NCBI RefSeq assembly: GCF_010093445.1
Contig: NZ_PDWW01000002.1
Span: 1-64,000 of the forward strand
From: Pseudoxanthomonas japonensis
Lineage (GTDB): Bacteria > Pseudomonadota > Gammaproteobacteria > Xanthomonadales > Xanthomonadaceae
DNA: 64,000 nt
Direction: 5' to 3'
Below, piece after piece: positions 2,608 to 41,853 of this stretch. Each line of letters starts with the position of its first letter. The first letter of the stretch is position 1. The notes under the pieces are model-generated. The model was given only the letters and a program-made list of their open reading frames with translations, did no database searches and had not been told where the DNA came from. Both the position numbers and the translations under genes were made by a program.

Positions 2608-4497
2608 TCAGACTTCCAGCGACGCCAGATCGCCCTTCGCTTCAAGCCATGACTTGCGATCGCTGGCGCGTTTCTTCGCCAGCAGCATGTCCATCAGGCC
2701 CCGCGTCTGCAGGTCGTCGTCGACGGTCAGCTGCACCAGGCGGCGCGTGTCCGGGTGGATGGTGGACTCGCGCAGCTGCGAGGGATTCATCTCGCCCAGG
2801 CCCTTGAAGCGGGTGACGTTGACCTGGCCGCGGATCTTCTCGCGCTCGATCTTCTCCAGCAGCAGGCGCTTTTCTTCCTCGTCCAGCGCGTAGAACACCT
2901 GCTTGCCCACGTCGACGCGGAACAGCGGCGGCATCGCCACGAACACGTGGCCCGACGCGACCAGCGTGGGGAAGTGGCGCAGGAACAGCGCGGTCAGCAG
3001 GGTGGCGATGTGCAGGCCGTCCGAATCGGCGTCGGCCAGGATCACCACCTTGCCGTAGCGCAGCCCGCTGATGTCGTCCTTGCCGGGATCGCAGCCGATG
3101 GCCACGGCCAGGTCGTGCACTTCCTGCGAGGCCAGCACGCTGCCGGAGGCGACTTCCCACGTGTTGAGGATCTTGCCGCGCAGCGGCAGGATCGCCTGGA
3201 AATCCTTGTCGCGCGCCTGCTTGGCCGAGCCGCCGGCCGAATCGCCTTCCACCAGGAACAGCTCGGTGCGCGACAGGTCCTGGCTGATGCAGTCGGCGAG
3301 CTTGCCGGGCAGGGCAGGGCCCTGGGTGACCTTCTTGCGGACGACCTGCTTCTCGGTCTTCAGGCGCGCGCTGGCGCGCTCGATGGCGATCTGCGCGATC
3401 TTCTCGCCCAGGTCGACGTGCTGGTTCAGCCACAGGCTGAAGGCATCGTGCGCGGCGCCTTCGATGAAGCCGGCGGCCTGGCGCGAGGACAGGCGTTCCT
3501 TGGTCTGGCCGCTGAACTGCGGGTCGGTCATCTTCAGCGACAGAACGAAGGTCACGCGGTCCCACACGTCTTCCGGTGCGAGCTTGACGCCGCGCGGCAG
3601 CAGGTTGCGGAAGTCGCAGAACTCGCGCAGCGCATCGGTCAGGCCGCTGCGCAGGCCATTGACGTGCGTGCCGTGCTGCGCGGTGGGGATCAGGTTGACG
3701 TAGCTTTCCTGCACCAGCTCGCCTTCCGGCACCCAGGCCACGGCCCAGTCCACGACTTCGCTGTCCTTCTTCAGCTGGCCGACGAACAGTTCCGGCGGCA
3801 GCAGCTCGCGGCCGGCCATCTCGCCGCGCAGGTAGTCGCGCAGGCCGTCCTCGTAGTGCCAGCTGTCGCGCTCGCCGGTGGCTTCGTCGAACAGGGTGAC
3901 GTTCAGCCCCGGGCACAGCACGGCCTTGGCGCGCAGCAGGTGCCGGAGTGCGCGCACGTTGAACTTCGGCGTGTCGAAATACTTCGGGTCGGCCCAGAAG
4001 CGGACGCGCGTACCCGTGTTCTTCTTGCCGACACTGCCGACCACTTCCAGCGGCGTGGCGCGGTCGCCGTTGCGGAAGGTGATGCGGTGTTCGCTGCCTT
4101 CGCGCTTGATGTGGACTTCGACCAGCGTGGACAGCGCGTTGACCACGCTGACGCCGACGCCGTGAAGGCCACCGGAGAAGGTGTAGTTCTTGTTGCTGAA
4201 CTTGCCGCCGGCGTGCAGGCGCGTGAGGATCAGTTCCACGCCCGGAATCTTCTCCTCCGGATGGATGTCCACGGGCATGCCGCGGCCGTCGTCGCTGACT
4301 TCGCAGCTGCCATCCTTGTACAGCGTGACCTCGATGCTGCCGGCGTGGCCGGCCAGCGCTTCGTCCACGGCGTTGTCGATGACTTCCTGCGCCAGATGGT
4401 TCGGACGCGCGGTGTCGGTATACATGCCCGGCCGGCGCTTGACCGGGTCAAGGCCGGAAAGGACTTCGATGTCGGCGGCGTTGTAACGACTGCTCAT
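2608..4497 (-). CDS. parE: DNA topoisomerase IV subunit B
   Basis: The 629-residue ATPase subunit of topoisomerase IV, which decatenates daughter chromosomes together with ParC. The N-terminus starts SSRYNAADIEVLSGLDPVKR. The GHKL ATPase box EVIDNAVDEALAGH and the glycine loop GLHGVGVSVVNALS follow. The TOPRIM domain begins ELFLVEGDSAGGSAKQARDK, and the C-terminus carries GQVNVTRFKGLGEMNP. The length matches E. coli ParE rather than the longer GyrB. It is transcribed divergently from the small secreted-protein gene at 4774. Confidence 0.97.
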   Translation of the reverse strand: MSSRYNAADIEVLSGLDPVKRRPGMYTDTARPNHLAQEVIDNAVDEALAGHAGSIEVTLYKDGSCEVSDDGRGMPVDIHPEEKIPGVELILTRLHAGGKFSNKNYTFSGGLHGVGVSVVNALSTLVEVHIKREGSEHRITFRNGDRATPLEVVGSVGKKNTGTRVRFWADPKYFDTPKFNVRALRHLLRAKAVLCPGLNVTLFDEATGERDSWHYEDGLRDYLRGEMAGRELLPPELFVGQLKKDSEVVDWAVAWVPEGELVQESYVNLIPTAQHGTHVNGLRSGLTDALREFCDFRNLLPRGVKLAPEDVWDRVTFVLSLKMTDPQFSGQTKERLSSRQAAGFIEGAAHDAFSLWLNQHVDLGEKIAQIAIERASARLKTEKQVVRKKVTQGPALPGKLADCISQDLSRTELFLVEGDSAGGSAKQARDKDFQAILPLRGKILNTWEVASGSVLASQEVHDLAVAIGCDPGKDDISGLRYGKVVILADADSDGLHIATLLTALFLRHFPTLVASGHVFVAMPPLFRVDVGKQVFYALDEEEKRLLLEKIEREKIRGQVNVTRFKGLGEMNPSQLRESTIHPDTRRLVQLTVDDDLQTRGLMDMLLAKKRASDRKSWLEAKGDLASLEV

Positions 4498-4773
4498 GGG
4501 TCTTCAGGTTCTCGATACGGCGCAGCGCCCCGGGGCGCCGCAGGATGACGAAGGGCGGGAACAGTCGGCCACGGGGCCGTCGCAGGGCGCGCGACGCGCC
4601 GGGTGTCCTGTCTGGCCTTTCGGACCGGGCGGCAGTGTGCGGCCAGCACGGCTTTTTTTCCATGTTCAGTCGAGGGCCGGGCAGCGGACGCTAGGCTTGC
4701 GCCGTGGACATGGATGCCCTTGGGAACGCCATCCGGCGCCCCCAGATTCCCGCCATCCACGAGGAGCATTGCC

Positions 4774-5028
4774 ATGAAGTCCCGCAACCTGTTGCTGCTG
4801 TCCGCCGCTGCCATCGGCGCGCTGTTCGCGGTCCAGGCGTTTGCCCAGTCCCGTACCGGTACGGAGGCCGACAAGCCGAAGCAGGACCAGTCCCAGACCA
4901 GTGACCCGTCCGATCCGGAGGCGAAGGCTCGCCGCCGTGCCGCCAACGAAGCCGCCGCCAAGCAGCGCAAGGCTGCCGAAGGCCAGCAGAAGAAGGCCGG
5001 CGAAGAAGACGAAGAGCGCAAGCCCTGA
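4774..5028 (+). CDS. Small secreted lysine/alanine-rich hypothetical protein
   Basis: An 84-residue protein with a clear signal peptide (MKSRNLLLLSAAAIGALFAV, cleavage expected after QAFA). A very hydrophilic tail follows, rich in Lys, Glu, Ala and Gln. GAGGAG at 4761-4766 sits 7 bases before the chosen ATG; upstream in-frame starts lack this and would bury the signal peptide. No known domain is recognised. It is probably periplasmic and monocistronic, facing away from parE. Confidence 0.7.
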   Translation: MKSRNLLLLSAAAIGALFAVQAFAQSRTGTEADKPKQDQSQTSDPSDPEAKARRRAANEAAAKQRKAAEGQQKKAGEEDEERKP

Positions 5029-5048
5029 CCATCGTCGTTACGCCCTGA

Positions 5049-6830
<1,782 letters not shown>

Positions 6831-6839
6831 ATGATTGTT

Positions 6840-6884
6840 CCTTCTCCCTCCGGGAGAAGGTGCCCCGAAGGGGCGGATGAGGGT
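6840..6884. repeat. Dispersed hairpin repeat, CTTCTCCC/GGGAGAAGG family
   Basis: Directly after pyrG: an arm CCTTCTCCC, a short loop, GGGAGAAGG, then GTGCCCCGAAGGGGCGGATG and AGGG. The same arrangement recurs near 30.15-30.32 kb and 30.74-30.86 kb. It looks like a REP/MITE-like intergenic repeat and could also act as a transcription attenuator. Confidence 0.75.
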
Positions 6885-6927
6885 TCGGCGAAGTTCCAGA
6901 TGTTCCAGCCTTCCTGATTCCGCCGTA

Positions 6928-6964
6928 CCCTCACCCCAACCCCTCTCCCGGTGGGAGAGGGGCC
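6928..6964. repeat. Related hairpin repeat between pyrG and kdsA
   Basis: CCCTCACCCCAACCCCTCTC followed by CCGGTGGGAGAGGGG forms a short hairpin (CCTCTCCC with GGGAGAGG). It resembles the repeat at 6840 in mirrored orientation, so the two may be the ends of one element. It ends 18 bases before the kdsA start. Confidence 0.65.
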
Positions 6965-6982
6965 AGATCGAGAGGTGGTTGA

Positions 6983-7815
6983 ATGAAGCTTTGTGGATTC
7001 GACGTCGGCCTGGACCAGCCCCTGTTCCTGATCGCCGGTCCATGCGTGATCGAGTCGATGCAGTTGCAGATTGATGTCGCCGGCCGTTTGAAGGAAATCA
7101 CCGGCAAGCTGGGGATGAACTTCATCTTCAAGTCGAGCTTCGACAAGGCCAACCGCACCTCCGGCACCAGCTTCCGCGGCCCGGGTCTGGAAGAGGGGCT
7201 GAAGGTGCTGGACGCGGTAAAGAAGCAGGTCGGCGTGCCGGTATTGACCGACGTGCACGAGTACACGCCGATGGACGAAGTCGCCGCCGTCGTCGACGTG
7301 CTGCAGACGCCTGCCTTCCTCGTGCGCCAGACCGACTTCATCAGGAAGGTCTGCTCGGCCGGCAAGCCGGTCAACATCAAGAAGGGCCAGTTCCTGTCGC
7401 CGTGGGACATGAAGCCCGTGGTCGAGAAGGCCAAATCCACCGGCAACCAGGACATCATGGTCTGCGAGCGCGGCGCGTCGTTCGGCTACAACAACCTGGT
7501 CAGCGACATGCGTTCGCTGAGCGTGATGCGCGACACCGGTTGTCCGGTCGTGTTCGATGCGACGCACTCGGTGCAGCTGCCGGGCGGGCAGGGCACCAGT
7601 TCCGGTGGTCAGCGCGAGTTCGTGCCGGTGCTGGCGCGCGCGGCCGTCGCCGTCGGCGTGGCCGGCCTGTTCGCCGAGACCCATCCGGATCCGGCCAAGG
7701 CGCTGTCCGATGGCCCGAACGCCTGGCCGCTGGACAAGATGGAAGCGCTGCTGGAGACGCTGCTGGCGCTGGATTCGATCACCAAGAAGAACGGGTTCCT
7801 GGAGAGCTCGGTCTG

Positions 7816-7816
<1 letters not shown>
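6983..7816 (+). CDS. kdsA: 3-deoxy-8-phosphooctulonate synthase (KDO-8-phosphate synthase)
   Basis: A 277-residue cytoplasmic enzyme joining phosphoenolpyruvate and arabinose 5-phosphate to make KDO-8-phosphate for lipopolysaccharide core synthesis. Diagnostic stretches are [10 protein letters not shown] near residue 17, [32 protein letters not shown] and [12 protein letters not shown]. The length is usual. Its TGA overlaps the next ATG, so it is probably cotranscribed with the secreted-protein gene and eno. Confidence 0.96.
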
Positions 7817-9626
<1,810 letters not shown>

Positions 9627-9629
9627 TCC

Positions 9630-9974
9630 ATGCGCAAGGCGCCCTGGCTCCTGCTGGTACTGGTACTGCTGCTGGGATGGCTCCAGTACAAGTTCTGGTT
9701 CGGTGTCGGCAGTTCGGGCCAGGTCGTCGCGCTGGAGCAGCAGGTCGAATCGCAGAAGCGCGAGAATGCCGGTCTGCAGGAACGCAACGACGCCCTGGCC
9801 GCCGAAGTCGAGGACCTCAAGTCCGGCGAGTCGGCGGTCGAGGAGCGGGCGCGCAGCGAACTGGGCATGATCAAGCCGGGCGAGAAGTTCTACCGGGTGG
9901 TCGAGCCGGTGCCACCGCTGCCCGTGACCGGCGGCGAAGGCAGCGATGGCGACGCCGCGGAGCCCTCGCCCTGA
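9630..9974 (+). CDS. ftsB: Cell division protein FtsB
   Basis: A 114-residue bitopic inner-membrane protein that forms the FtsQ-FtsL-FtsB divisome subcomplex. It has a single N-terminal transmembrane segment ([18 protein letters not shown]), then a coiled coil of about 40 residues ([20 protein letters not shown]). It ends with the [17 protein letters not shown] motif of the FtsB/DivIC family and a short acidic tail. It lies between eno and ispD as in many gammaproteobacteria; its stop overlaps the ispD ATG. Confidence 0.94.
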
Positions 9975-32643: not shown

Positions 32644-32955
32644 ATGTACGAGCCCAACGACCCTGCGCACCACCACGACCTGGACGCGGACGACGCCGCG
32701 TCGGCCGCCACGCTCCTCGACCGTCGCGACCCCACGCCTGCGGACGATCCCGTCGCCCTGCGCTCGGGCCTGTCGCGCGCACAGCTCGATACGCTGGAAA
32801 CGATGGAAAGCTTCCACTGGCGGCTGGGTTTCGTGCGCTGGCCGGTGTTCAAGGCCGCCATCCCGGTGCTGTTCAACCGCGACGGCACGCGCTACGTGGT
32901 GATCCGCGAAGACGGCAGCATCGACGAGCGTCCCACGCTGCAACTGCGGCAGTGA
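32644..32955 (+). CDS. Small tandem paralogue 1 of 3
   Basis: A 103-residue protein of unknown family. A variable acidic N-terminus (PNDPAHHHDLDADD) is followed by a 66-residue core: ALRSGLSRAQLDTLETMESF, then HWRLGFVRWPVFKAAIPVLF, NRDGTRYVVIREDGSIDE and RPTLQLRQ. The core aligns without gaps with the next two genes. It is hydrophilic with no signal or membrane segment, so it is probably cytoplasmic. The ATG at 32644 is preferred over an earlier in-frame start. No function is known. Confidence 0.75.
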   Translation: MYEPNDPAHHHDLDADDAASAATLLDRRDPTPADDPVALRSGLSRAQLDTLETMESFHWRLGFVRWPVFKAAIPVLFNRDGTRYVVIREDGSIDERPTLQLRQ

Positions 32956-33083
32956 GGCAGGCCGCACGCCGCGCCGGCAGCGCGGTGGCGGCACAGGTCT
33001 TGCAACGTCATCACGCCCCTCAATGGCGGCCGTTCGCGGCCGTTACGGAGAGCAGGTGTCGCTGGTAACCGCTGGAGTCCCCC

Positions 33084-33401
33084 ATGTACCGTTCTGCCGC
33101 CCGAGCCGCTGTCATCACCGGGCCCTGGCCTTCCTCCGCGCCGACGAAGGCGCCCACCACGACCGAGCGCCGCCAGGCCGTGCCGGCGACGGACGCCGAG
33201 GCGTTGCGCGCGGGCCTGACGCCGGCGCAGCTGATGACGCTGGAAGCGCTGGAAATCTTCCAGTGGCGGCTCGCCTTCGTGCGGCGCCCGCTGTTCCAGG
33301 CGCCGATTCCCGTGCTGTTCGACCGCGGGGACACGCGCTACGTGGTCATCGAGGAAGACGGCACGCTCAACGAGCAGCCCACGCTGACCTTGCGCGCCTG
33401 A
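33084..33401 (+). CDS. Small tandem paralogue 2 of 3
   Basis: A 105-residue paralogue of the gene at 32644. The N-terminal third is unrelated (YRSAARAAVITGPWPSSAPT); the core is ALRAGLTPAQLMTLEALEIF, QWRLAFVRRPLFQAPIPVLF and TRYVVIEEDGTLNEQPTL. GGAG lies 6 bases before the ATG. Spacing to the neighbours is about 130-150 bases, so each copy may have its own promoter. Confidence 0.75.
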   Translation: MYRSAARAAVITGPWPSSAPTKAPTTTERRQAVPATDAEALRAGLTPAQLMTLEALEIFQWRLAFVRRPLFQAPIPVLFDRGDTRYVVIEEDGTLNEQPTLTLRA

Positions 33402-33548
33402 GCGGGCAGGGCGCGTCGACATCGCTGAACCGGCGCTACATCCGCCGGATCCGTCCTCACGTTTTGTTCCTGTCGGCCGATACAGGGTGTAGCCCTGCGC
33501 GCGTCGGCGACGCGCGTGTACTTCCACGCCATCAGGAGCCCCCACCGG

Positions 33549-33854
33549 ATGACGGACCCGCACCGCCCCCGCAATCCCGCCGAGCCAGACGCCCCCGGCG
33601 CCGCTCCCCGCAGTCCCGAGCGCCGCAAGGGCGCGCCGAAGATGGACGACGCCACGCTGCTGGCCGGCCTCACTCCGGCACAGCAGGCGACCATCGAGAC
33701 CATGGAAACCTTCCACTGGCGCCTGAAGTTCGTCCGCCGCCCGCTGTTCAAGACCCCGATCCCCGTGCTGTTCAACCGCGAGGGGGATCGCTACGTGGTG
33801 GTGAACGAGGATGGGACGATTGATGAGCAGCCGACGTTGGTGTTGCGCGATTGA
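33549..33854 (+). CDS. Small tandem paralogue 3 of 3
   Basis: A 101-residue paralogue with a Pro/Arg-rich N-terminus (HRPRNPAEPDAPGAAPRS) and the core TLLAGLTPAQQATIETMETF, HWRLKFVRRPLFKTPIPVLF, DRYVVVNEDGTIDEQPTL. AGGAG lies 11 bases before ATG 33549. It ends 54 bases before the accessory island starts, so the island may have been inserted next to it. Confidence 0.75.
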   Translation: MTDPHRPRNPAEPDAPGAAPRSPERRKGAPKMDDATLLAGLTPAQQATIETMETFHWRLKFVRRPLFKTPIPVLFNREGDRYVVVNEDGTIDEQPTLVLRD

Positions 33855-33908
33855 TCGTCCGCAGCCACTAAGCCTTGGTCTGGAAACATCATATTCGCCC
33901 TTTCTGCT

Positions 33909-36900
33909 TCAATGCTTAGGGGCTAGCGACAAACTGCCTGCCTTCAGGTCAAGAACTCCTTTCGATAACAGGGCTTCGGTTCGCGCAATAAGGGCCGCCC
34001 TCAGTTGTGCGCTCGTCGTGCGGTAGCCCAGTCCTCTGGATACATGGATTGCTACCTCATCGAGCGTCGCACCGAGATTCTCTTTGATCAGGCGCAGTAT
34101 CGCTGCGTCGATCTCCATGGGTGGGAGAAGTTCTGGCCTTCGCAGGGTGTTTGATTCAGCTGAGCTGCGATCTCTTGCGACAACTTCTCGACCTGGCCAG
34201 AGAAGAAACTCGCCTTCGCGAATGATCGCTCGCTCACGTACCGCGTGCTCGATACCATCGTCGACTGCCGCCTGAATTCTTCCGCCCGTCCGCTGCAGGT
34301 CCCATAAGGAGCGAATCCTCACGGCCACTTCAGAGCAGTGAATAGGGCCTTCGATGTGTACTACGTCTCGTACGATGGTTGCCATGCGTGCGGGCGGAAC
34401 GAGATGAAGCTCGTACTGGTGCTTCGGGACGGAGAACGAGGCTTCCACATACGCTTGGGCTAGGGGCGTCTCGACGGAGACCAGTCCGACTTCTACGTAG
34501 TCCTCGTGCTCGATGGTCTCGAAGTCGACTGGTACAGCTCGAGTACGTGGCGCATGATTCGTGGCTAAAGGATCAGGTTCTGCCTTCGCTGCCTCAATGA
34601 TGGCGAGAAGCTCATCGAGCTGCGCCTTTGGCCGACGGAACCACTCTGAGCTCCAGATTCGGTGGATGTTCCATCCCTTATCCCGGAGCGCTTGCTCGCG
34701 CAAACGATCACGATCGCGCGCGCTCTTGGCCGCTCTGTATGAATTGCCGTCGCATTCGATGCCAAGAAGGTACCGACCAGGTTTGGATGGATCGTATATA
34801 GCGATATCAACGAAAATTCCAGCTTCACCAACGTTGGTGTGGAAGTCGTACCCCCGGGAACGAAGAGCAGCAGCTACCTCCTGCTCGAACACGCCATCCT
34901 TGTGTTCTTCTGCGCTTCTGTCGATGTGCATGCGGCCCGTGCGCGCGTAATGCATAAAGAGCTTCAGTGCCGCAGTACCCTTGCCCCTTCCTCGCTCAAG
35001 GTCGATATCCTCGTCGGTGATCGAAGAAAAGACCTCGCACCGGGACTTCGCCCGACTAATCAGAACATTCAGGCGGCGCTCGCCCCCCTCGTTACTCACC
35101 GGGCCAAAGTTCATGCTGACATTGCCGTGTGCATCGCGGCCGTAACCGATGGAGATGAGTACTACATCGCGCTCATCGCCCTGAATGTTCTCAAGGCTCT
35201 TCACGAAGAACGGCTCGTGAGCATGCGCTCCAAAGAAGCCCTCAGTCTCTGGGTGCTGCCGCCGCAGAAGCTCAATCTCATCGAAGACCGCTCGCCGCTG
35301 TTGCGTGGAGAAAGCAGCGACGCCGAGAGTTAGGTTGGGCGTTGTCATGGCATGTGAAATAACCGCCTGGGCTATCGCTTTAGCCTCTTTGGGATTGGTG
35401 CGAGTGTTGCCACGATCGTAGATGGCGTCGGGGAGGTGATGGAAACGAAGGCCGACACCAGCCTCGCCCGTATAGGGGCTGGGTACGATGACGAGCTTGT
35501 TCTCATAGAACTGCTGGTTGGAGACGGCAATCAGAGACTGGTGGCGGCTGCGGTAATGCCAACGCAGCATGCGTTCGGGCAGGCCTCTCGCCCTGCATAG
35601 TCCAAGAATGCTCTCGACATCGGCCGCCTGAGCGCCATCGTCGTCTGCACCATCGTTGCCATCGCCAAGTGTTTTTGAGAAGAAGCGAGTTGGCGGCAGC
35701 TGGCGTTCATCACCCACAACGACGAGCTGTTTGGAGCGAGCGATCGCACCCAGTGCATCGATTGGCTGGACCTGGCTGGCTTCATCGACCACAAGTAGAT
35801 CGAAGGCAATCTTGCCGGGCGCGAGAAACTGGGCGACCGACAGTGGGCTCATCATGAAGACGGGCTTGAGCGCTTGGATAGCAGGTGCCGCACGCTCCAT
35901 GAGGACTCGGATAGGCAGGTGACCGCGCTTTCTCGCCATTTCACCCATGAGTACCGCCGTAGGGCCGGCGGCTCCACCTCGCTGTGGGATATTTGCGCGA
36001 TGGATCTGGCTGACTTGGCGTCGTGCCAGATCGATGCGATCACGGTCTAGGGTGGTGAAGCTTTCTACGAGCGCTGTCTGCCGTTTGCCGTCGAACTGAC
36101 CTAGCTCACGATCTCGAGCGATCATCGCAGCCAGCAAGGACTCCATGTAGGCCAGATCGAAGCTTCCTCGTGTGCGGTCCGGCTCTAAGTTCCCGCTCTG
36201 AAGCTCCTTGATGATGGAACTAAGCCCTTGCCGCTGAGCGCGCTTGGCTTGAGCAAGATAGCCAACCCATTGCGGCAGCCCTTCAGGGTCCGACTCCCAG
36301 GCATTGAGTTGTTTGATTGCCTCTGCGACGGAGGCCTTAGCAGGATCCGCACTTAACAGCTTCGTGCCGGAAAAGGCGAGCGTCGCAAATAGTTCCATAA
36401 GCTCGCCCGCCAGCCCCTCACCCGCGGCAAGCAGCTCAAGAGCCTGCTCGCGCGTCGCCGCCGGATCTCGGATGGTTGCGGCTAGGCCGCGCAGGTCGCC
36501 ATTCTTATGCATCCACGACAACGCAGAGCCCAGTGCGGAGGCATCCGATTCTATGTCCAGCCACAACGGTCCGAATGCGGCCCGACCGGTCGGCGCCACG
36601 TCAGTCAGGTGCTTACGAGCGACTTGGTCCTGCTCAAGCAGGCCAAGGCGTTCAGCCACCTGAGAAACTGTCAGTTCGCTGTGATCCGCCAAGTGCTGGA
36701 CGTCATCGAACGAAGACGCAAAAGGAGCGAGCCGCTTGGCGACAACTGAAAGCGGCAACGCCGTGAGCGATGTCTCTTCATCCCACAGCTTCTTCTCACC
36801 AGCAAGAAGAGCCTCATGCACCAGCGCAAGTGACTTCTGGGAACGCTCCAAGGTAGGACGAATGCGGGCGGCAAGTTCGACCGCCAAGCGCCTGTCGGAG

Positions 36901-39527
36901 ATATCCGCGAGCTGCTCACGAACGCCCGTACCAAGAGGACGCAGAGTACGCATCCAGGCGACGACGCCGCGCATGTAGGCTGGGTGAGAGCGATCCCGTT
37001 CCCAACTGGATCCAAATGCCTCGAGGCCTTGGGCGTCGCTGTCCTGAACACGTTGCAGCGCGGCCTGACCATCTAGCAATTGATCGAGTGCGGCCAGCAT
37101 CTGATCAGAAGGAAGCTTCGGGTTAGCAAGCTGTGCGCGAACCGATCGATTTGCGTTGCGCCATTGGCCGCTGAGAAATCTCAGCCAGCTCCCGCTCCGG
37201 CTCGCCAACTCTTCCCGCGCCGTTTCAAAGTCTTTAGACCATGCACTGTCACGGAATATCCCGGCGATTTGCTTGCGAGCACTCTGCACACGTTCGACGG
37301 ATTCGACGACCCCTTCCACCGTATCCACACCTCGCTCCCAGATACGGGCTACCAAGGCGTCGCGATCGAGCTCGGGGATCGTGGCCGCGCGCTCACCGAT
37401 GGCCACAAGCCTGCTGGCGCTGGCGAAGGTAAGTTCAGTGCGCTCTGATAGAAGCTGACCAAGGCGCCCCAGATCGGGTGTTATAGAGGTCAGATCTCGA
37501 TACGCAGCGGCAAGGCTCTGAAACTCCGATCCGACAGTGAAGGACGGCAGTAGGTCATCAGCGCTAGTCTTCGCCCCAGACCAGTCCAAGTCACGGGCTT
37601 CGTCCGCCACCAGCGACTGAGTGCGTTCACTAAATGTCTGCGCAAGGCGCAGGGCTTGAAGAGCCTCCTCGACGGCAGCATTGTCCTCCCAAGCCGTGCT
37701 TGAGAAGGCGGTCGCATCGAGAGGTGGCGCGGTGAGTAGCAGGTCACAGCGCGCGACGGCTTGTATGCATGAACTCAATTGATCAGGTGGGGGCAATGCA
37801 AGTTCGTCGTGGAGGCACATGGCTGACTCACGCCATGACTCCAAGCGTTGCTTCAAGGCTCCGACTTCTTTGCCTAGCCGCTCAACGTCATTAGGAAGAA
37901 GTACATCGTTGTCCACGCCCGACCAGGCATGGTTAGCGGGCACCCCCATGGTTCTGATGCGGTCACAGATATCTGCCAGCAACTTGCGTCGCGCATCGAC
38001 TTCGTGGGGCGCCCACTTCAGTGGGTCTGATAGTGGGAGATGCTCTGTAGTGAAGCCTTCTCTGCGCAGTCTGACGAGCTCGCCGAAGACGGCATAGGGT
38101 GTCATTGCGGAAGGCAGTAGAACTTGATGCAACCGCTGCGCATGAGCGTTCAGTTCCGCCTGGCGCTCAGCAAGCTGCTCGACAATCGTGTCGTCTGAGT
38201 CCTGTGGCATCTGTGCCAGCTGCCATGTAAGACGAAGGTCCTCAAGCAGGGTCCGCTTGTTCGCTTTATTACTATGGAGCTCAAGACATGCGTTACCGAT
38301 CCTGACCTGGTCGAGGCGGCGCTTGACCACCTCCAAAGCGGCCAGTTTCTCGGCTACAAACAGGACCTTCTTGCCGGCAGCCACGGCTCCGGCGATGACA
38401 TTAGCGATTGTCTGGGACTTGCCGGTGCCTGGAGGTCCTTGCACCACCATGCTGTGTCCATTCAGTGCGTCATGCACCACCAGCGATTGCGAACTGTCCG
38501 AGTCGACGACGTGTCGCATGCGAGCGGGAGTGATCTCCTTATCAATATCAAAGTTCTCGCCGGAGAGCGCTGCTCCCGGAAAACCGTCCGATACCACCCC
38601 CCGTAGCATGGGAATGGACTCCATGCCCCCGGACTCGGCCCAAAGCGACGGATCGAGATCGCGATACATCATGAACTTGGCGAACGAGAATAGGCCAAGC
38701 ACAGCATCGTTGGGGAGTACCTCCCAGTCCGGAGTGCCATCGACCAACTTCGCCACCGAAGCCATGTAAGCATCAATGTCGAGAGACTCAAAATCCTCGA
38801 TGTCCGGCAGCTTCATGCCGAACTGCCGCTGCAGGAACAGCTGAAGCGAGAGGTTGGCTTGGACTTCATCCCCCTGCCAGCGAAGGTGAAACTTCTCACC
38901 AGCATTACTGCGCTCCAGCGCAGCCGGGACTAGAACAAGAGGTGCGTACCGATCGACCTTGGGGGCACCTGGCGCACGCCACTTCAGGTAGCCAATGGCC
39001 AGGTAGAGCACGTTGATGCCCTGTTCCTCTTGGAGGGTGCGTGCGTCGATGTAGAGATCAAGAAGGCGCTTCTGCAAGCCGGTGGGGGTGAGTCGCGTGG
39101 TGAGATGAGCATCCCACTGGCTAACCAAACGACCATGCTCATCTAGCTCAAGATCCGGCTGGGCGAGGAGCTCAGAGTCTTCTGGTGATTCAAGTACGTC
39201 GGGTAGCGGCTCGTCGTCGAGCATCACTTCTATCGAGAGCACTGGTTGCTCTTCGTCCACTTGCGCCGGTTCGGCTCGCCCCGCAACGAACGTAAACCGT
39301 TTGCCTTCGATGACCAAGGTCTGATACATCGCCTTGGCTAGCTCATTAATGATCTCGACCGTCTTGGCTCGTCCACTGCGGGGCGTATTGAGCAGACGAT
39401 TTCGCGTAGACAGGTCCAATAACTCCAACCGTGCTCGGTTGACCTTATCTACAAGTGCGCCAGCTTCTCTCAGGACCGAGCCACTTTCGCTGGCGGGTAT
39501 GCCTACCTCTGCCTCAAGTCGTTCCAT
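33909..39527 (-). CDS. DUF4011-SF1 helicase-Vsr-like nuclease-DUF3320 fusion protein, predicted antiphage defence
   Basis: A 1872-residue multidomain protein. N-terminal DUF4011-type region (residues about 25-320; RLELLDLSTRNRLLNTPRSG). SF1 helicase: Walker A VVQGPPGTGKSQTIANVIAG with GPPGTGKS at about 364-371, Walker B VVDEASQVQPIDAL near 1248, VVVGDERQLPPTRFF after it, then AAA_12-like motifs (MLRWHYRSRHQSLIAVSNQQ, LENIQGDERDVVLISIGYGR, NVLISRAKSRCEVF). A Vsr/MTES-like nuclease follows (IFVDIAIYD, LLGIECDGNSY near 1590, IHRIWSSEWF), then DUF3320 to the C-terminus. This fusion architecture has been reported as antiphage, as I recall from published screens. Its GC is lower than neighbours. 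It is divergent from the Abi gene. Confidence 0.88.
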   Translation of the reverse strand: MERLEAEVGIPASESGSVLREAGALVDKVNRARLELLDLSTRNRLLNTPRSGRAKTVEIINELAKAMYQTLVIEGKRFTFVAGRAEPAQVDEEQPVLSIEVMLDDEPLPDVLESPEDSELLAQPDLELDEHGRLVSQWDAHLTTRLTPTGLQKRLLDLYIDARTLQEEQGINVLYLAIGYLKWRAPGAPKVDRYAPLVLVPAALERSNAGEKFHLRWQGDEVQANLSLQLFLQRQFGMKLPDIEDFESLDIDAYMASVAKLVDGTPDWEVLPNDAVLGLFSFAKFMMYRDLDPSLWAESGGMESIPMLRGVVSDGFPGAALSGENFDIDKEITPARMRHVVDSDSSQSLVVHDALNGHSMVVQGPPGTGKSQTIANVIAGAVAAGKKVLFVAEKLAALEVVKRRLDQVRIGNACLELHSNKANKRTLLEDLRLTWQLAQMPQDSDDTIVEQLAERQAELNAHAQRLHQVLLPSAMTPYAVFGELVRLRREGFTTEHLPLSDPLKWAPHEVDARRKLLADICDRIRTMGVPANHAWSGVDNDVLLPNDVERLGKEVGALKQRLESWRESAMCLHDELALPPPDQLSSCIQAVARCDLLLTAPPLDATAFSSTAWEDNAAVEEALQALRLAQTFSERTQSLVADEARDLDWSGAKTSADDLLPSFTVGSEFQSLAAAYRDLTSITPDLGRLGQLLSERTELTFASASRLVAIGERAATIPELDRDALVARIWERGVDTVEGVVESVERVQSARKQIAGIFRDSAWSKDFETAREELASRSGSWLRFLSGQWRNANRSVRAQLANPKLPSDQMLAALDQLLDGQAALQRVQDSDAQGLEAFGSSWERDRSHPAYMRGVVAWMRTLRPLGTGVREQLADISDRRLAVELAARIRPTLERSQKSLALVHEALLAGEKKLWDEETSLTALPLSVVAKRLAPFASSFDDVQHLADHSELTVSQVAERLGLLEQDQVARKHLTDVAPTGRAAFGPLWLDIESDASALGSALSWMHKNGDLRGLAATIRDPAATREQALELLAAGEGLAGELMELFATLAFSGTKLLSADPAKASVAEAIKQLNAWESDPEGLPQWVGYLAQAKRAQRQGLSSIIKELQSGNLEPDRTRGSFDLAYMESLLAAMIARDRELGQFDGKRQTALVESFTTLDRDRIDLARRQVSQIHRANIPQRGGAAGPTAVLMGEMARKRGHLPIRVLMERAAPAIQALKPVFMMSPLSVAQFLAPGKIAFDLLVVDEASQVQPIDALGAIARSKQLVVVGDERQLPPTRFFSKTLGDGNDGADDDGAQAADVESILGLCRARGLPERMLRWHYRSRHQSLIAVSNQQFYENKLVIVPSPYTGEAGVGLRFHHLPDAIYDRGNTRTNPKEAKAIAQAVISHAMTTPNLTLGVAAFSTQQRRAVFDEIELLRRQHPETEGFFGAHAHEPFFVKSLENIQGDERDVVLISIGYGRDAHGNVSMNFGPVSNEGGERRLNVLISRAKSRCEVFSSITDEDIDLERGRGKGTAALKLFMHYARTGRMHIDRSAEEHKDGVFEQEVAAALRSRGYDFHTNVGEAGIFVDIAIYDPSKPGRYLLGIECDGNSYRAAKSARDRDRLREQALRDKGWNIHRIWSSEWFRRPKAQLDELLAIIEAAKAEPDPLATNHAPRTRAVPVDFETIEHEDYVEVGLVSVETPLAQAYVEASFSVPKHQYELHLVPPARMATIVRDVVHIEGPIHCSEVAVRIRSLWDLQRTGGRIQAAVDDGIEHAVRERAIIREGEFLLWPGREVVARDRSSAESNTLRRPELLPPMEIDAAILRLIKENLGATLDEVAIHVSRGLGYRTTSAQLRAALIARTEALLSKGVLDLKAGSLSLAPKH

Positions 39528-39624
39528 CGCACCATCCCCCGGCCGCCCCCGGCGGCTGATATGCGGCTATAGTGCCCCTAAATGAGACAGCCATCCACTA
39601 TTTGAGTGGCCCGGGGAGGGCGCC
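39528..39624. promoter_or_regulatory. Divergent promoter region of the defence pair
   Basis: Ninety-seven bases between two divergent starts. On the plus strand CTATAGT could be a -10 box; the complement ACTATAG could serve the other strand. A GC-rich palindrome (GGCCGCCCCCGGCGG) lies beside the helicase start. Assignment is tentative. Confidence 0.4.
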
Positions 39625-40389
39625 ATGGAGGGGCTTAAACCAAGCGAGATTCATTGGGTGGTCAACCACTACATCGGTGTGTCGGGTGGCTACCTGGGCG
39701 ACTTCAGTTACGCGTCCCATCGCGAGTTCTATTCGAACTATTGCGATCTTGATGTTGACGTCGATGCGTTCGCTGAGAACACCACAAGAAAGAAATTTGC
39801 TGCCATCCTGAGCGCCTCTAAGCCCAGTGCCCAGGCAGCAATTCTGATCGGTGTGGCTCGGAGGTTTCCTCCCGGATCCGAAATGCAACGCAGCACGGCC
39901 GCCTATCAGAAGCTCGTAGGGCTAGCCAAGCGATGTCGGCAAGTCGCCGCTGTCGAGGGTGGAGAGCCGAGAATAACGAGTGATCTTGTTCAGCGAGCAC
40001 TTGCAGAGGCGACGACGCTTCTAAACACGCATGGTCCGGCTAGCGCCATTGATCGATTGCACACCGCATTACATGGCTATTTGAGAACGGCCTGCCGGGC
40101 CGCTAGCCTGGATCTCTCAGGCGCGCCATCTGATCCGCGAATCGTTTACTACTTCAAAGTGCTTCGGCAGCAACATCCAGGCTTCGAAGCGCCGATTGCA
40201 CAGCAAGCAGCTATGAAGAACATACTCAATAGTGCTGCGACGTTGCTGGAGCAGTTGGACCCGATCCGAAATCGGGCCACGCTCGCGCATGCTAATGAGG
40301 AGCTGCTTTCGCACGACGAGGCGCTTCTTGTTATTAACCTGGTCAGGAGTCTGATGCAGTACTTCGACGCGAAGCTGCAGCTGGAGTAG
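39625..40389 (+). CDS. Abortive-infection family protein with HEPN-like motif
   Basis: A 254-residue protein. The N-terminal part reads HYIGVSGGYLGDFSYASHRE and TTRKKFAAILSASKPSAQAA. The C-terminal half resembles the Abi_C domain of abortive-infection proteins: IDRLHTALHGYLRTACRAAS, ILNSAATLLEQLDPIRNRAT and LSHDEALLVINLVRSLMQYF. R215-N216 and H222 form R-x6-H (R217 to H222 also gives R-x4-H), the active-site pattern of HEPN ribonucleases. GGGGAGGG precedes the ATG. Its lower GC matches the divergent helicase gene. Probably a toxin or effector in defence; partnership is inferred. Confidence 0.75.
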   Translation: MEGLKPSEIHWVVNHYIGVSGGYLGDFSYASHREFYSNYCDLDVDVDAFAENTTRKKFAAILSASKPSAQAAILIGVARRFPPGSEMQRSTAAYQKLVGLAKRCRQVAAVEGGEPRITSDLVQRALAEATTLLNTHGPASAIDRLHTALHGYLRTACRAASLDLSGAPSDPRIVYYFKVLRQQHPGFEAPIAQQAAMKNILNSAATLLEQLDPIRNRATLAHANEELLSHDEALLVINLVRSLMQYFDAKLQLE

Positions 40390-40447
40390 TGGCAATGAAC
40401 TGCGATCAGTCGGATGGCGGGATTGGTCTGTATAGCGAGAAGAGCTA

Positions 40448-40469
40448 GGGGCGGACAGTTGTCCGCTCC
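40448..40469. other. Palindrome between abi and symE-like genes
   Basis: GGGGCGGACAGTTGTCCGCT followed by CC is almost a perfect inverted repeat. It lies between the convergent ends of the Abi gene and the SymE-like gene and may end both transcripts, though there is no T run. Confidence 0.5.
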
Positions 40470-40483
40470 CTGCATTACATGCA

Positions 40484-40704
40484 CTACTCTTCAGCAACAA
40501 TCTTGATGCCGCGCGCCGTAACTTGCATGAGCGCTTTCTTTCTCGCCGTAAACCCCGCGGCTTGTTGCCAGTCGCCGCCCAAGCGCAAGAAGGGAGCTTT
40601 TATTGGTCGGCAACGGCGCTCTTCATCTTTGTGTTGGATCTCGCAGAGTGCTGATAACCAATCTTCAAGGGGTGCGGTTTCAGTTGCATTTTTCTTGCGG
40701 CCAT
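40484..40704 (-). pseudogene. SymE-like toxin gene with a frame change
   Basis: ATG 40704 has a strong AGGAGG 5 bases upstream and starts MAARKMQLKPHPLKIGYQHS, then meets TAA at 40600. A second frame, shifted by one base, carries RRCRPIKAPFLRLGGDWQQA followed by AGFTARKKALMQVTARGIKI and a TAG at 40484. The second part matches the SymE C-terminal domain (P-x-L-x-G-x-W-x-x-AGF). The first part also resembles SymE N-termini (L-x-x-GYQ). A shift near 40605-40625 would join them. It could be a pseudogene, a sequencing error or a recoding site. Confidence 0.5.
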
Positions 40705-40812
40705 CGTGGCCTCCTGGCGAGCTGTTGAGTGTGCTCCTGTTGAGAGGGTGGCCAGGTACCTCAACGCCGCCGCTATAAGGCCCGAAGCTTTCCCCGGCAA
40801 GCCGGTTCCTAT

Positions 40813-40926
40813 ATGGCTGGACACTACTCGGACATAGAAGCTACGGATGAAGAAATGGCGGTTCAGTCGCTGGCACTGCTAGCGGAAGTTATGTTGAGTA
40901 GCTGCGGCCAAGCTATCGGCGTGTGA
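40813..40926 (+). CDS. Short ORF in accessory island, doubtful
   Basis: Encodes 37 residues, beginning MAGHYSDIEATDEEMAVQSL and continuing LALLAEVMLSSCGQAIGV. It has a plausible amphipathic helix but no clear ribosome site and no known family. It could be a remnant of an older gene. Confidence 0.25.
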   Translation: MAGHYSDIEATDEEMAVQSLALLAEVMLSSCGQAIGV

Positions 40927-40972
40927 GTTGGGATCAACCTTCCAATACGTCGGCACAGGCAGCCGTACTTGG

Positions 40973-41266
40973 GTAGCTTTCGGTCTCTCTTCTCGCACAA
41001 ACATCCATCTCTGGATGTTTTCCGGTGTTTCTTCTCACGCTAAGCCCCAACGTTTCCCCTTTTTGGTGAAACGTTCCATGTTTTCCGGCCGTTCTTCTCA
41101 CACTAACGGTCAACGTCGTATGTTTTTGGTCGAGCGTTCCATGTTTTCCAGTGTTTCTTCTCACACTAATGGCCAACGTTGGATGTTTTTCGGTCAACGT
41201 TGGAAGTGTTTGGTCCGATGACGGATGTTTTCCGGTGTCGCGTCCATGTTTTCCGGTCAATCGGTC
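40973..41266. repeat. Nested 21/63-bp tandem repeat
   Basis: Three full 63-bp units start at 41015, 41078 and 41141, each beginning ATGTTTTCC. A partial copy precedes them (40973-41014), and 21-bp sub-units (ATGTTTTCCGGT...) follow at 41225 and 41246. Each 63-bp unit is three 21-bp sub-repeats. A T-rich sense strand and about 50% GC set it apart from its surroundings. Both strands are open over it, which follows from the period being a multiple of three. Confidence 0.9.
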
Positions 41267-41382
41267 GGCTTAGTGTGAGAAGTACTCCACTTGCAAAGTG
41301 ACAGCTCGGAAGGAGGGTGAGCGGGGGTAGGCTGCGGGTGCCGGCCGGACCCGGCCGGTACAACCTGAAAGGATGCAATCAC

Positions 41383-41853
41383 ATGACACAGAACCGCATC
41401 GCGATGGCCTTCGGCCCCGACCGTCTGGAACGCATCGACGGCTCCCTTACCGCACTCGAAGCCGATCTCGACCTGCTGATCGCCCTCACCACCGACGAAC
41501 GCCAGGACCTGGTGAAGATGGGCAACAAGTCACGCGCCTTCTGCGCCTCCGCCTTCGACATCGCCCAGCAGCACGCCGGCCTCATGCCGCGCGACTTCGA
41601 CATCGAGGCCTTTCGCCAGGACCACCTGGCCCTAGATGCTCTGCGGCCCCGCGCCGCGCGCATGGCCCACCTGATGCAGCGCATGGCCGACACCGAACTC
41701 GCCCTCGGCAGCGACATCATGGCTGCCGCCCTCGAGGTCTACGCCGTCCTGAAAGTCGCCGGCAAGGACAAGGGCGTCGACGAAGCTCGCCGCGAACTCG
41801 CCTCGCGCTTCAGCCGCCGGCGTGCGGCCGACGAGACGCCGCCCAAGGTCTGA
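41383..41853 (+). CDS. Conserved small hypothetical protein
   Basis: A 156-residue, mostly helical soluble protein: RLERIDGSLTALEADLDLLI, GNKSRAFCASAFDIAQQHAG, ARMAHLMQRMADTELALGSD and a basic C-terminus (SRFSRRRAADETPPKV). GAAAGGA precedes ATG 41383 by about 9 bases. It returns to the high GC of the chromosome, so it marks the right edge of the island. No family name is known to me. Confidence 0.75.
   Translation: MTQNRIAMAFGPDRLERIDGSLTALEADLDLLIALTTDERQDLVKMGNKSRAFCASAFDIAQQHAGLMPRDFDIEAFRQDHLALDALRPRAARMAHLMQRMADTELALGSDIMAAALEVYAVLKVAGKDKGVDEARRELASRFSRRRAADETPPKV

Follow-up and report, generated by a model that had tools for sequence, protein, structure and literature searches.

Two divergent genes in a low-GC part of the Pseudoxanthomonas japonensis genome raise the question of whether a small Abi-type protein with a HEPN domain is a partner of a large helicase-nuclease whose family has been catalogued as a single-gene defence system. 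The window analysed here consists of the first 64,000 nucleotides of contig NZ_PDWW01000002.1 (assembly GCF_010093445.1, 4.08 Mb in 74 contigs). As the initial annotation had it, the two genes start 97 bp apart in opposite directions; the open reading frame (ORF) listing gives their coordinates and strands exactly (Table 1). The reported low GC content at the pair is also seen, with values per kb of 0.555–0.603 across 34–41 kb compared with mostly 0.64–0.75 in the remainder of the window, while the 80% given for comparison was the value of one line only and not a local average. The closest named relative found at the locus is Pseudoxanthomonas beigongshangi, with 87% identity of the Abi protein. 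The analysis supports a conserved partnership between the small Abi/HEPN protein and this lineage of helicases.

The pairing was surveyed from both sides. A scan with two short peptide patterns over 84,980 species genomes, which yields a sample and not a census, found 64 loci encoding a relative of the Abi protein. The helicase adjoins the Abi gene in 14 of these, divergently in every case (14/14), and at the other 50 no such helicase is present in the available flanks, with a few contigs ending early. Among 395 Lysobacteraceae genomes searched for the helicase, 28 match at E ≤1e-100, and all those with at least 57% identity to the window protein (18/18) have an adjoining Abi gene, which is cut short in one of them (G732); in G112, the contig contains the first part of the helicase only. 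More distant helicases have no Abi gene at any of the 14 loci where the sequence covers the start of the gene and 1.5 kb or more upstream (L035, L036, L114–L122, L029, L138, and L145). Loci outside this set, namely L101 with ~0.4 kb upstream, L030 and L031 with ~1 kb, and C-terminal-only matches such as L139–L144, show no Abi match either and have little or no test value. Ten neighbours at eight loci were scanned for an alternative partner of unpaired helicases. None matched HEPN or Abi_C at E ≤0.1, and the matches obtained were to a NUDIX protein, a beta-flower protein, and an insertion sequence-type transposase domain. For comparison, only 10 of 100 searched genomes of relatives, the window's own genome included, encode an Abi_C domain of whatever kind.

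The initial annotation had held that the partnership would be unlikely if homologues of the Abi gene were found mostly away from the helicase, and for the Abi family as sampled this is the case (50/64). The notion that the two families are always partners was rejected on this count and on the 0/14 distant helicases. For the same two reasons, we consider the pair to be a lineage-specific two-gene variant and not a universal partnership: the proposed HEPN partner holds as a conserved divergent one within this helicase lineage, as seen in the 14/14 loci and in the trees and distances described below, and fails as a general rule.

In the Abi tree (56 rows), the 16 paired sequences form one clade with bootstrap and Shimodaira–Hasegawa-like approximate likelihood ratio test (SH-aLRT) values of 100/98, and the 40 unpaired ones lie outside it. 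This tree was built without 11 rows that contain stops or are short (L086, L089, L091–L094, and L096–L100) and without the plasmid locus L011, where the Abi match is in two pieces. The helicase tree, comprised of 34 rows without L136 and L137, is divided by one branch (SH-aLRT 100) into 22 paired sequences, 19 of them different, and 12 unpaired ones; the tool flagged three identical-row pairs (31/34 rows are different) and the long unpaired branches, and L101 with its little upstream sequence is among the unpaired rows. Protein distances of the two partners co-vary over 15 pairs (Mantel r 0.957, with 0/9999 permutations as high; Spearman 0.73). Compared with the congener whose Abi protein is 87% identical, dN/dS is ~0.07/1.30 for abi and 0.073/1.16 for the helicase, which points to selection on both genes, in direction only, as dS is near saturation. 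By blastn and single linkage, 10 flank groups were counted by hand among 16 pairs, and diverged flanks may look unrelated. Thus, the pair has the conserved adjacency and co-inheritance of a two-gene helicase–HEPN module. In addition, the pair is present on a 12-kb Xanthomonas plasmid (NZ_CP020996.1, L011, positions 3503–9970); the matches to both genes are split into several pieces there, which suggests a broken copy or frame errors in the record. A Geobacillus plasmid with an Abi relative gave no helicase match.

The large protein was said to carry helicase motifs, a Vsr-like nuclease, and DUF3320, and Pfam recovers all of them; the AAA_11 and AAA_12 matches are the two halves of a split superfamily 1 (SF1) helicase. 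Conservation was counted over 36 aligned rows, which include the truncated L136 and L137, the latter read in a wrong frame. In this alignment, nuclease residues D1574, E1591, C1592, and D1593, with putative catalytic roles, are conserved. DUF3320 overlaps winged-helix domains, according to the part of PMC3710099 drawn on here. No HEPN or transglutaminase domain was matched in the large protein by Pfam at E up to 1.

The assignment of the large protein to a known family is less direct. Its best full-length profile matches are the candidate family PDC-S37, the top PADLOC match (1763 bits, E 0, in a listing without curated cut-off), and ProA of NCBIfam (NF058533), where 1463.9 bits is a near miss to the cut-off of 1500. 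The match to Hhe in PADLOC is far weaker (711 bits), and the NCBIfam model of Hhe (NF042953) is alignable over residues 31–1653 with 989.9 bits for a cut-off of 2000, so the window protein is a relative of Hhe and not a member. The statement in the initial annotation that the architecture is a known antiphage single-gene system is therefore only partly correct: the scores are below the cut-offs of both Hhe and ProA, and the best PADLOC match is to a candidate family.

The small protein matches Pfam Abi_C at residues 188–246 (E 1.2e-8), and no PADLOC or NCBIfam match was found at E up to 1. In the predicted structure, it has the four-helix HEPN fold. The HEPN catalytic motif is R-x(4-6)-H, and R215-x6-H222 conforms to it in all 56 aligned Abi rows; R215, N216, and H222 are identical throughout, in 16/16 paired and 40/40 unpaired sequences, and D143, R144, H146, and H150 are each conserved in 55/56. 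The Abi_C-like C-terminus with these residues, proposed from the sequence alone, is thereby confirmed. The N-terminal domain, modelled with confidence (pLDDT 92.3 and pTM 0.87 for the model), has residues G22, L24, G25, F27, H32, and F35 invariant across the 56 rows; structural comparison of residues 1–112 gave no convincing match, and Pfam gave no match to a DNA-binding domain in the protein. The PADLOC AbiJ profile matches 32 of 40 family members at E ≤0.01 (best 1.6e-14) but not the window protein itself, at E up to 1, and the Pfam AbiJ N-terminal model was not among the 25 families listed of 40. Relatives in viral contigs and phage records were sought, and none was confirmed. Taken together, the domains and conserved putative catalytic motifs fit the proposed combination of a DNA-targeting and an RNA-targeting protein.

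Table 1. Features of the helicase–HEPN locus; positions refer to the 64,000-nucleotide window.
Feature	Position	Strand	Basis
Hotspot variable segment containing the pair	33855..40980 (right edge approximate)		Synteny breaks compared with congeners
Large gene, 1872-aa DUF4011–SF1 helicase–MTES_1575 nuclease–DUF3320 protein	33909..39527	-	ORF, Pfam, PADLOC, NCBIfam
DUF3320, residues 1706-1752	34272..34412	-	Pfam, E 8.9e-13
REase_MTES_1575 (Vsr-like) nuclease, residues 1547-1643	34599..34889	-	Pfam, E 6.4e-33
Walker B / motif II, D1248-E1249 (DEAS)	35781..35786	-	Retained in at least 95% of 36 rows
Walker A, G364-S371 (GPPGTGKS)	38415..38438	-	Every residue retained in at least 95% of 36 aligned rows
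DUF4011, residues 35-232	38832..39425	-	Pfam, E 3.4e-37; coordinates converted from residues
Divergent intergenic region, 97 bp	39528..39624		Gap between both ATGs
-10-like TATAGT, Abi side	39568..39573	+	Reading by eye; putative promoter element
Small gene, 254-aa AbiJ-like HEPN protein	39625..40389	+	ORF, Pfam Abi_C, family comparisons
N-terminal mostly helical domain, residues 1-112	39625..39960	+	Predicted structure
HEPN-fold domain, residues 115-254	39967..40386	+	HEPN-like model
Putative catalytic motif R215-N216-x5-H222	40267..40290	+	Alignment conservation

At the other paired loci, 97–158 bp separate the matched ends of the two genes. Shared control remains a suggestion: the only conserved element is the -10-like one on the Abi side, TATA(A/G)TGC, present by eye in 12/13 aligned intergenic gaps and missing in L048. 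A search for RNA families in 39400–41500 returned a single chance-level row (E 0.23, 20 bits for a gathering score of 100).

The pair is located in a variable site of the chromosome. Synteny on the left stops exactly at 33854 in 10 of the 13 congener loci fetched; on the right it returns between ~40972 and 41623 in 12 of 13 and was not found in L217. The site is near-empty in G028 (L215) and G020 (L216), with ~130 bp between the edges in one of the two and ~30 bp in the other, and ten congeners have ~5–19 kb of other genes there. A PADLOC scan of 30 of the 76 cargo ORFs from nine congeners (L217 and L218 were outside it) matched type I, III, or IIG restriction, PtuAB-like proteins, dCTPase, or PrrC in 8/9 at E <1e-50. 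In particular, type I restriction was found in L211, L212, and L214, type III in L207, type IIG in L208 and L209, PtuAB-like PDC-M01 in L206, and dCTPase in L210; PrrC adjoins the type I genes in L214 (G037), and the scanned cargo of L213 had a weak nuclease match only. This chromosomal defence hotspot supports a defence role of the pair by association. In Pseudomonas aeruginosa, a DUF4011 gene has been described, in the part of PMC10250203 drawn on here, as a core gene that borders a defence hotspot on its right side.

Unpaired Abi relatives have neighbourhoods of their own. A type I or III restriction gene lies within 6 ORFs at 8 of 51 unpaired loci, which is a lower bound, as 15 query proteins were used; among hand-picked long neighbours, 6/10 had restriction matches, which is not a rate. 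The Abi gene is overlapped by HsdR in L070 and by HsdS in L047; HsdR follows it by 30 bp in L077, and Res precedes it by 94 bp in L088. Hence, members of this putative RNase family have come to lie next to DNA-attacking enzymes on more than one occasion. AbiJ proteins, mostly without N-terminal domains, were also found in restriction operons by Anantharaman and others (PMC3710099, in part). The search for a common neighbour of unpaired Abi genes gave no family in more than five unpaired loci, and one five-locus family is HsdM; one seven-locus neighbour family occurs among paired Abi loci only. In Sinomonas (L070, 6894–15297), an AbiJ-like gene stands between the overlapping HsdR and a gene for a 1478-aa protein that matches PDC-M54A weakly; the locus may be a larger composite system.

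Several known systems resemble the pair in part. PDC-S37 and ProA are the closest to the helicase, and the distant helicase relatives examined here had no Abi partner. AbiJ, like the window protein, has a variable N-terminal domain and a C-terminal HEPN domain with an R...H motif, although the window protein differs from most of its relatives in the missing AbiJ match. In the part of PMC3710099 drawn on here, giant fusions combine another HEPN family with a transglutaminase, an SF1 helicase, a Vsr nuclease, and a winged helix-turn-helix domain, and a two-pronged defence is proposed in which the RNase comes into play upon failure of the DNase, in the manner of PrrC. The giant proteins of the MTES_1575 type described there (HEPN SWT1/Abi2) share with our pair the HEPN domain, the SF1 helicase, the MTES_1575 nuclease, and the DUF3320/winged-helix region; by contrast, the HEPN domain of the window is encoded by a separate, divergent AbiJ-like gene, the helicase is of the DUF4011 form, and no transglutaminase was matched. 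PrrC, in the same source, is an RNase next to the DNA restriction enzyme EcoprrI that acts as a second line of defence, has its own ABC ATPase, and has a partner with a methylase. Unlike that arrangement, the variable segment of the window contains no methylase, and the DNA enzyme is the DUF4011 helicase-nuclease; in the congener G037, the hotspot of the pair contains PrrC together with a type I system. Among the publications listed on DUF4011, DUF3320, PDC-S37, ProA, Hhe, AbiJ/HEPN, and PrrC with restriction, none describes the pair, judging by titles and abstracts, with subscription journals mostly uncovered. The parts are of known kinds and the two-layer idea is already published, and this lineage's fixed combination of two genes seems to be undescribed in the literature covered.

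On balance, and with some reserve, we favour the reading that the pair is one mobile two-component antiphage module with the helicase-nuclease as the first layer and the HEPN RNase as the second. This reading is based on the 18/18 adjacency, the single-clade trees, the distance correlation, the selection on both genes, the ~10 flank contexts, the defence hotspot, the conserved motifs, and the HEPN-like model, and it has a precedent in the giant HEPN–helicase–Vsr fusions (PMC3710099, in part). A second-line role of the Abi protein is further suggested by those unpaired relatives that adjoin or sit inside restriction operons. Judging from its domains, the large protein would load on invading DNA, probably via the C-terminal DUF3320/winged-helix region, translocate, and cut with the Vsr-like nuclease, all without a methylase. 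The HEPN RNase would presumably be held inactive or unengaged in uninfected cells and be released or activated once the DNA layer is engaged, inhibited, or overwhelmed; it might then cleave RNA, perhaps tRNA, and stop the infected cell. The N-terminal domain of the Abi protein could be an adaptor to the partner or to the trigger. In this scheme, we infer the RNase activity, the RNA target, the order of the layers, and the physical coupling of the pair.

The strongest competing explanation is two independent single-gene systems, a Hhe/ProA-like helicase and a solo AbiJ-like Abi, that became linked once and have since been co-inherited by hitch-hiking; we rate it as rather unlikely. Several observations speak for it. 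Both families also occur apart, and so the unpaired forms are explained; divergent neighbours in a hotspot can be coincidence; and in G732 (L126) the Abi gene is cut after approximately residue 82 by unrelated sequence, from position 7438, while the helicase frame is open. Together with G049, where the helicase has a stop ~70–75 residues short of its C-terminal end and the Abi frame is open, this copy leaves a strict mutual need of the two genes in doubt. Still, hitch-hiking leaves the strict adjacency (18/18) and the fixed divergent geometry within the clade unexplained. It also has to account for the single origin of both clades and for a pair kept over about ten flank contexts, where hitch-hikers would be expected to separate.

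Alternatively, the helicase could restrain a toxic HEPN RNase, as in toxin–antitoxin addiction, so that cells losing the helicase would die and the module would persist. HEPN RNases have been described as restrained by partners (PMC3710099, in part), and the helicase is beside the Abi gene in 16/16 rows of the paired clade. However, 40/56 Abi rows have no adjoining helicase and the gene must be tolerated there in some other way, and in G049 the Abi frame is open beside a helicase that lacks its C-terminal end, albeit by a short truncation; we therefore consider addiction improbable. Still less probable is that the Abi protein acts as a sensor or regulator responding to RNA or a phage component, with the helicase-nuclease as the sole effector and no cleavage by the HEPN domain. 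Divergent promoters often serve regulators, and the highly conserved N-terminal domain could bind a ligand, yet invariance of R215, N216, and H222 and the near-invariance of D143, R144, H146, and H150 are as expected of an enzyme, and a DNA-binding domain is missing among the Pfam matches.

If the two-component module is real, a helicase family catalogued as single-gene becomes a two-gene system in one bacterial lineage, and helicase-only tests there may miss half of the system. The pair would be a testable case of DNA attack first and RNA suicide second without a methylase, and the paired, unpaired, and restriction-operon forms provide a natural series for finding the HEPN trigger. More tentatively, AbiJ-like HEPN RNases may be a plug-in second layer recruited several times, by type I and type III systems and once, in a Lysobacteraceae or gammaproteobacterial ancestor, by a methylase-free DUF4011 helicase-nuclease; in this last instance, the RNase would have become a permanent partner, set off once the DNA layer is disabled or overwhelmed by a phage.

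The hotspot has further features of interest. Large cargo genes in L206 (7591–9471, 10814–14074, and 14004–15167), L212 (1721–4888), and L213 (1446–4181) had no PADLOC match at E 1e-5 and may be undescribed defence genes. On its left, the site in the window is bordered (~32700–33854) by three consecutive small genes, related by eye, with the pattern ...FHWRL.FVR.P.F..PIPVLF...G.RYVV...DG...QPTL.LR, and similar sequence borders the congener sites. Downstream of the Abi gene, positions 40978–41260 contain an imperfect array of ~63-bp repeats (ATGTTTTCCGGTGTTTCTTCTCACACTAA...); comparable short sequences are found at numerous positions in congeners, and the array thus has the appearance of a dispersed intergenic repeat located where the hotspot ends on the right.

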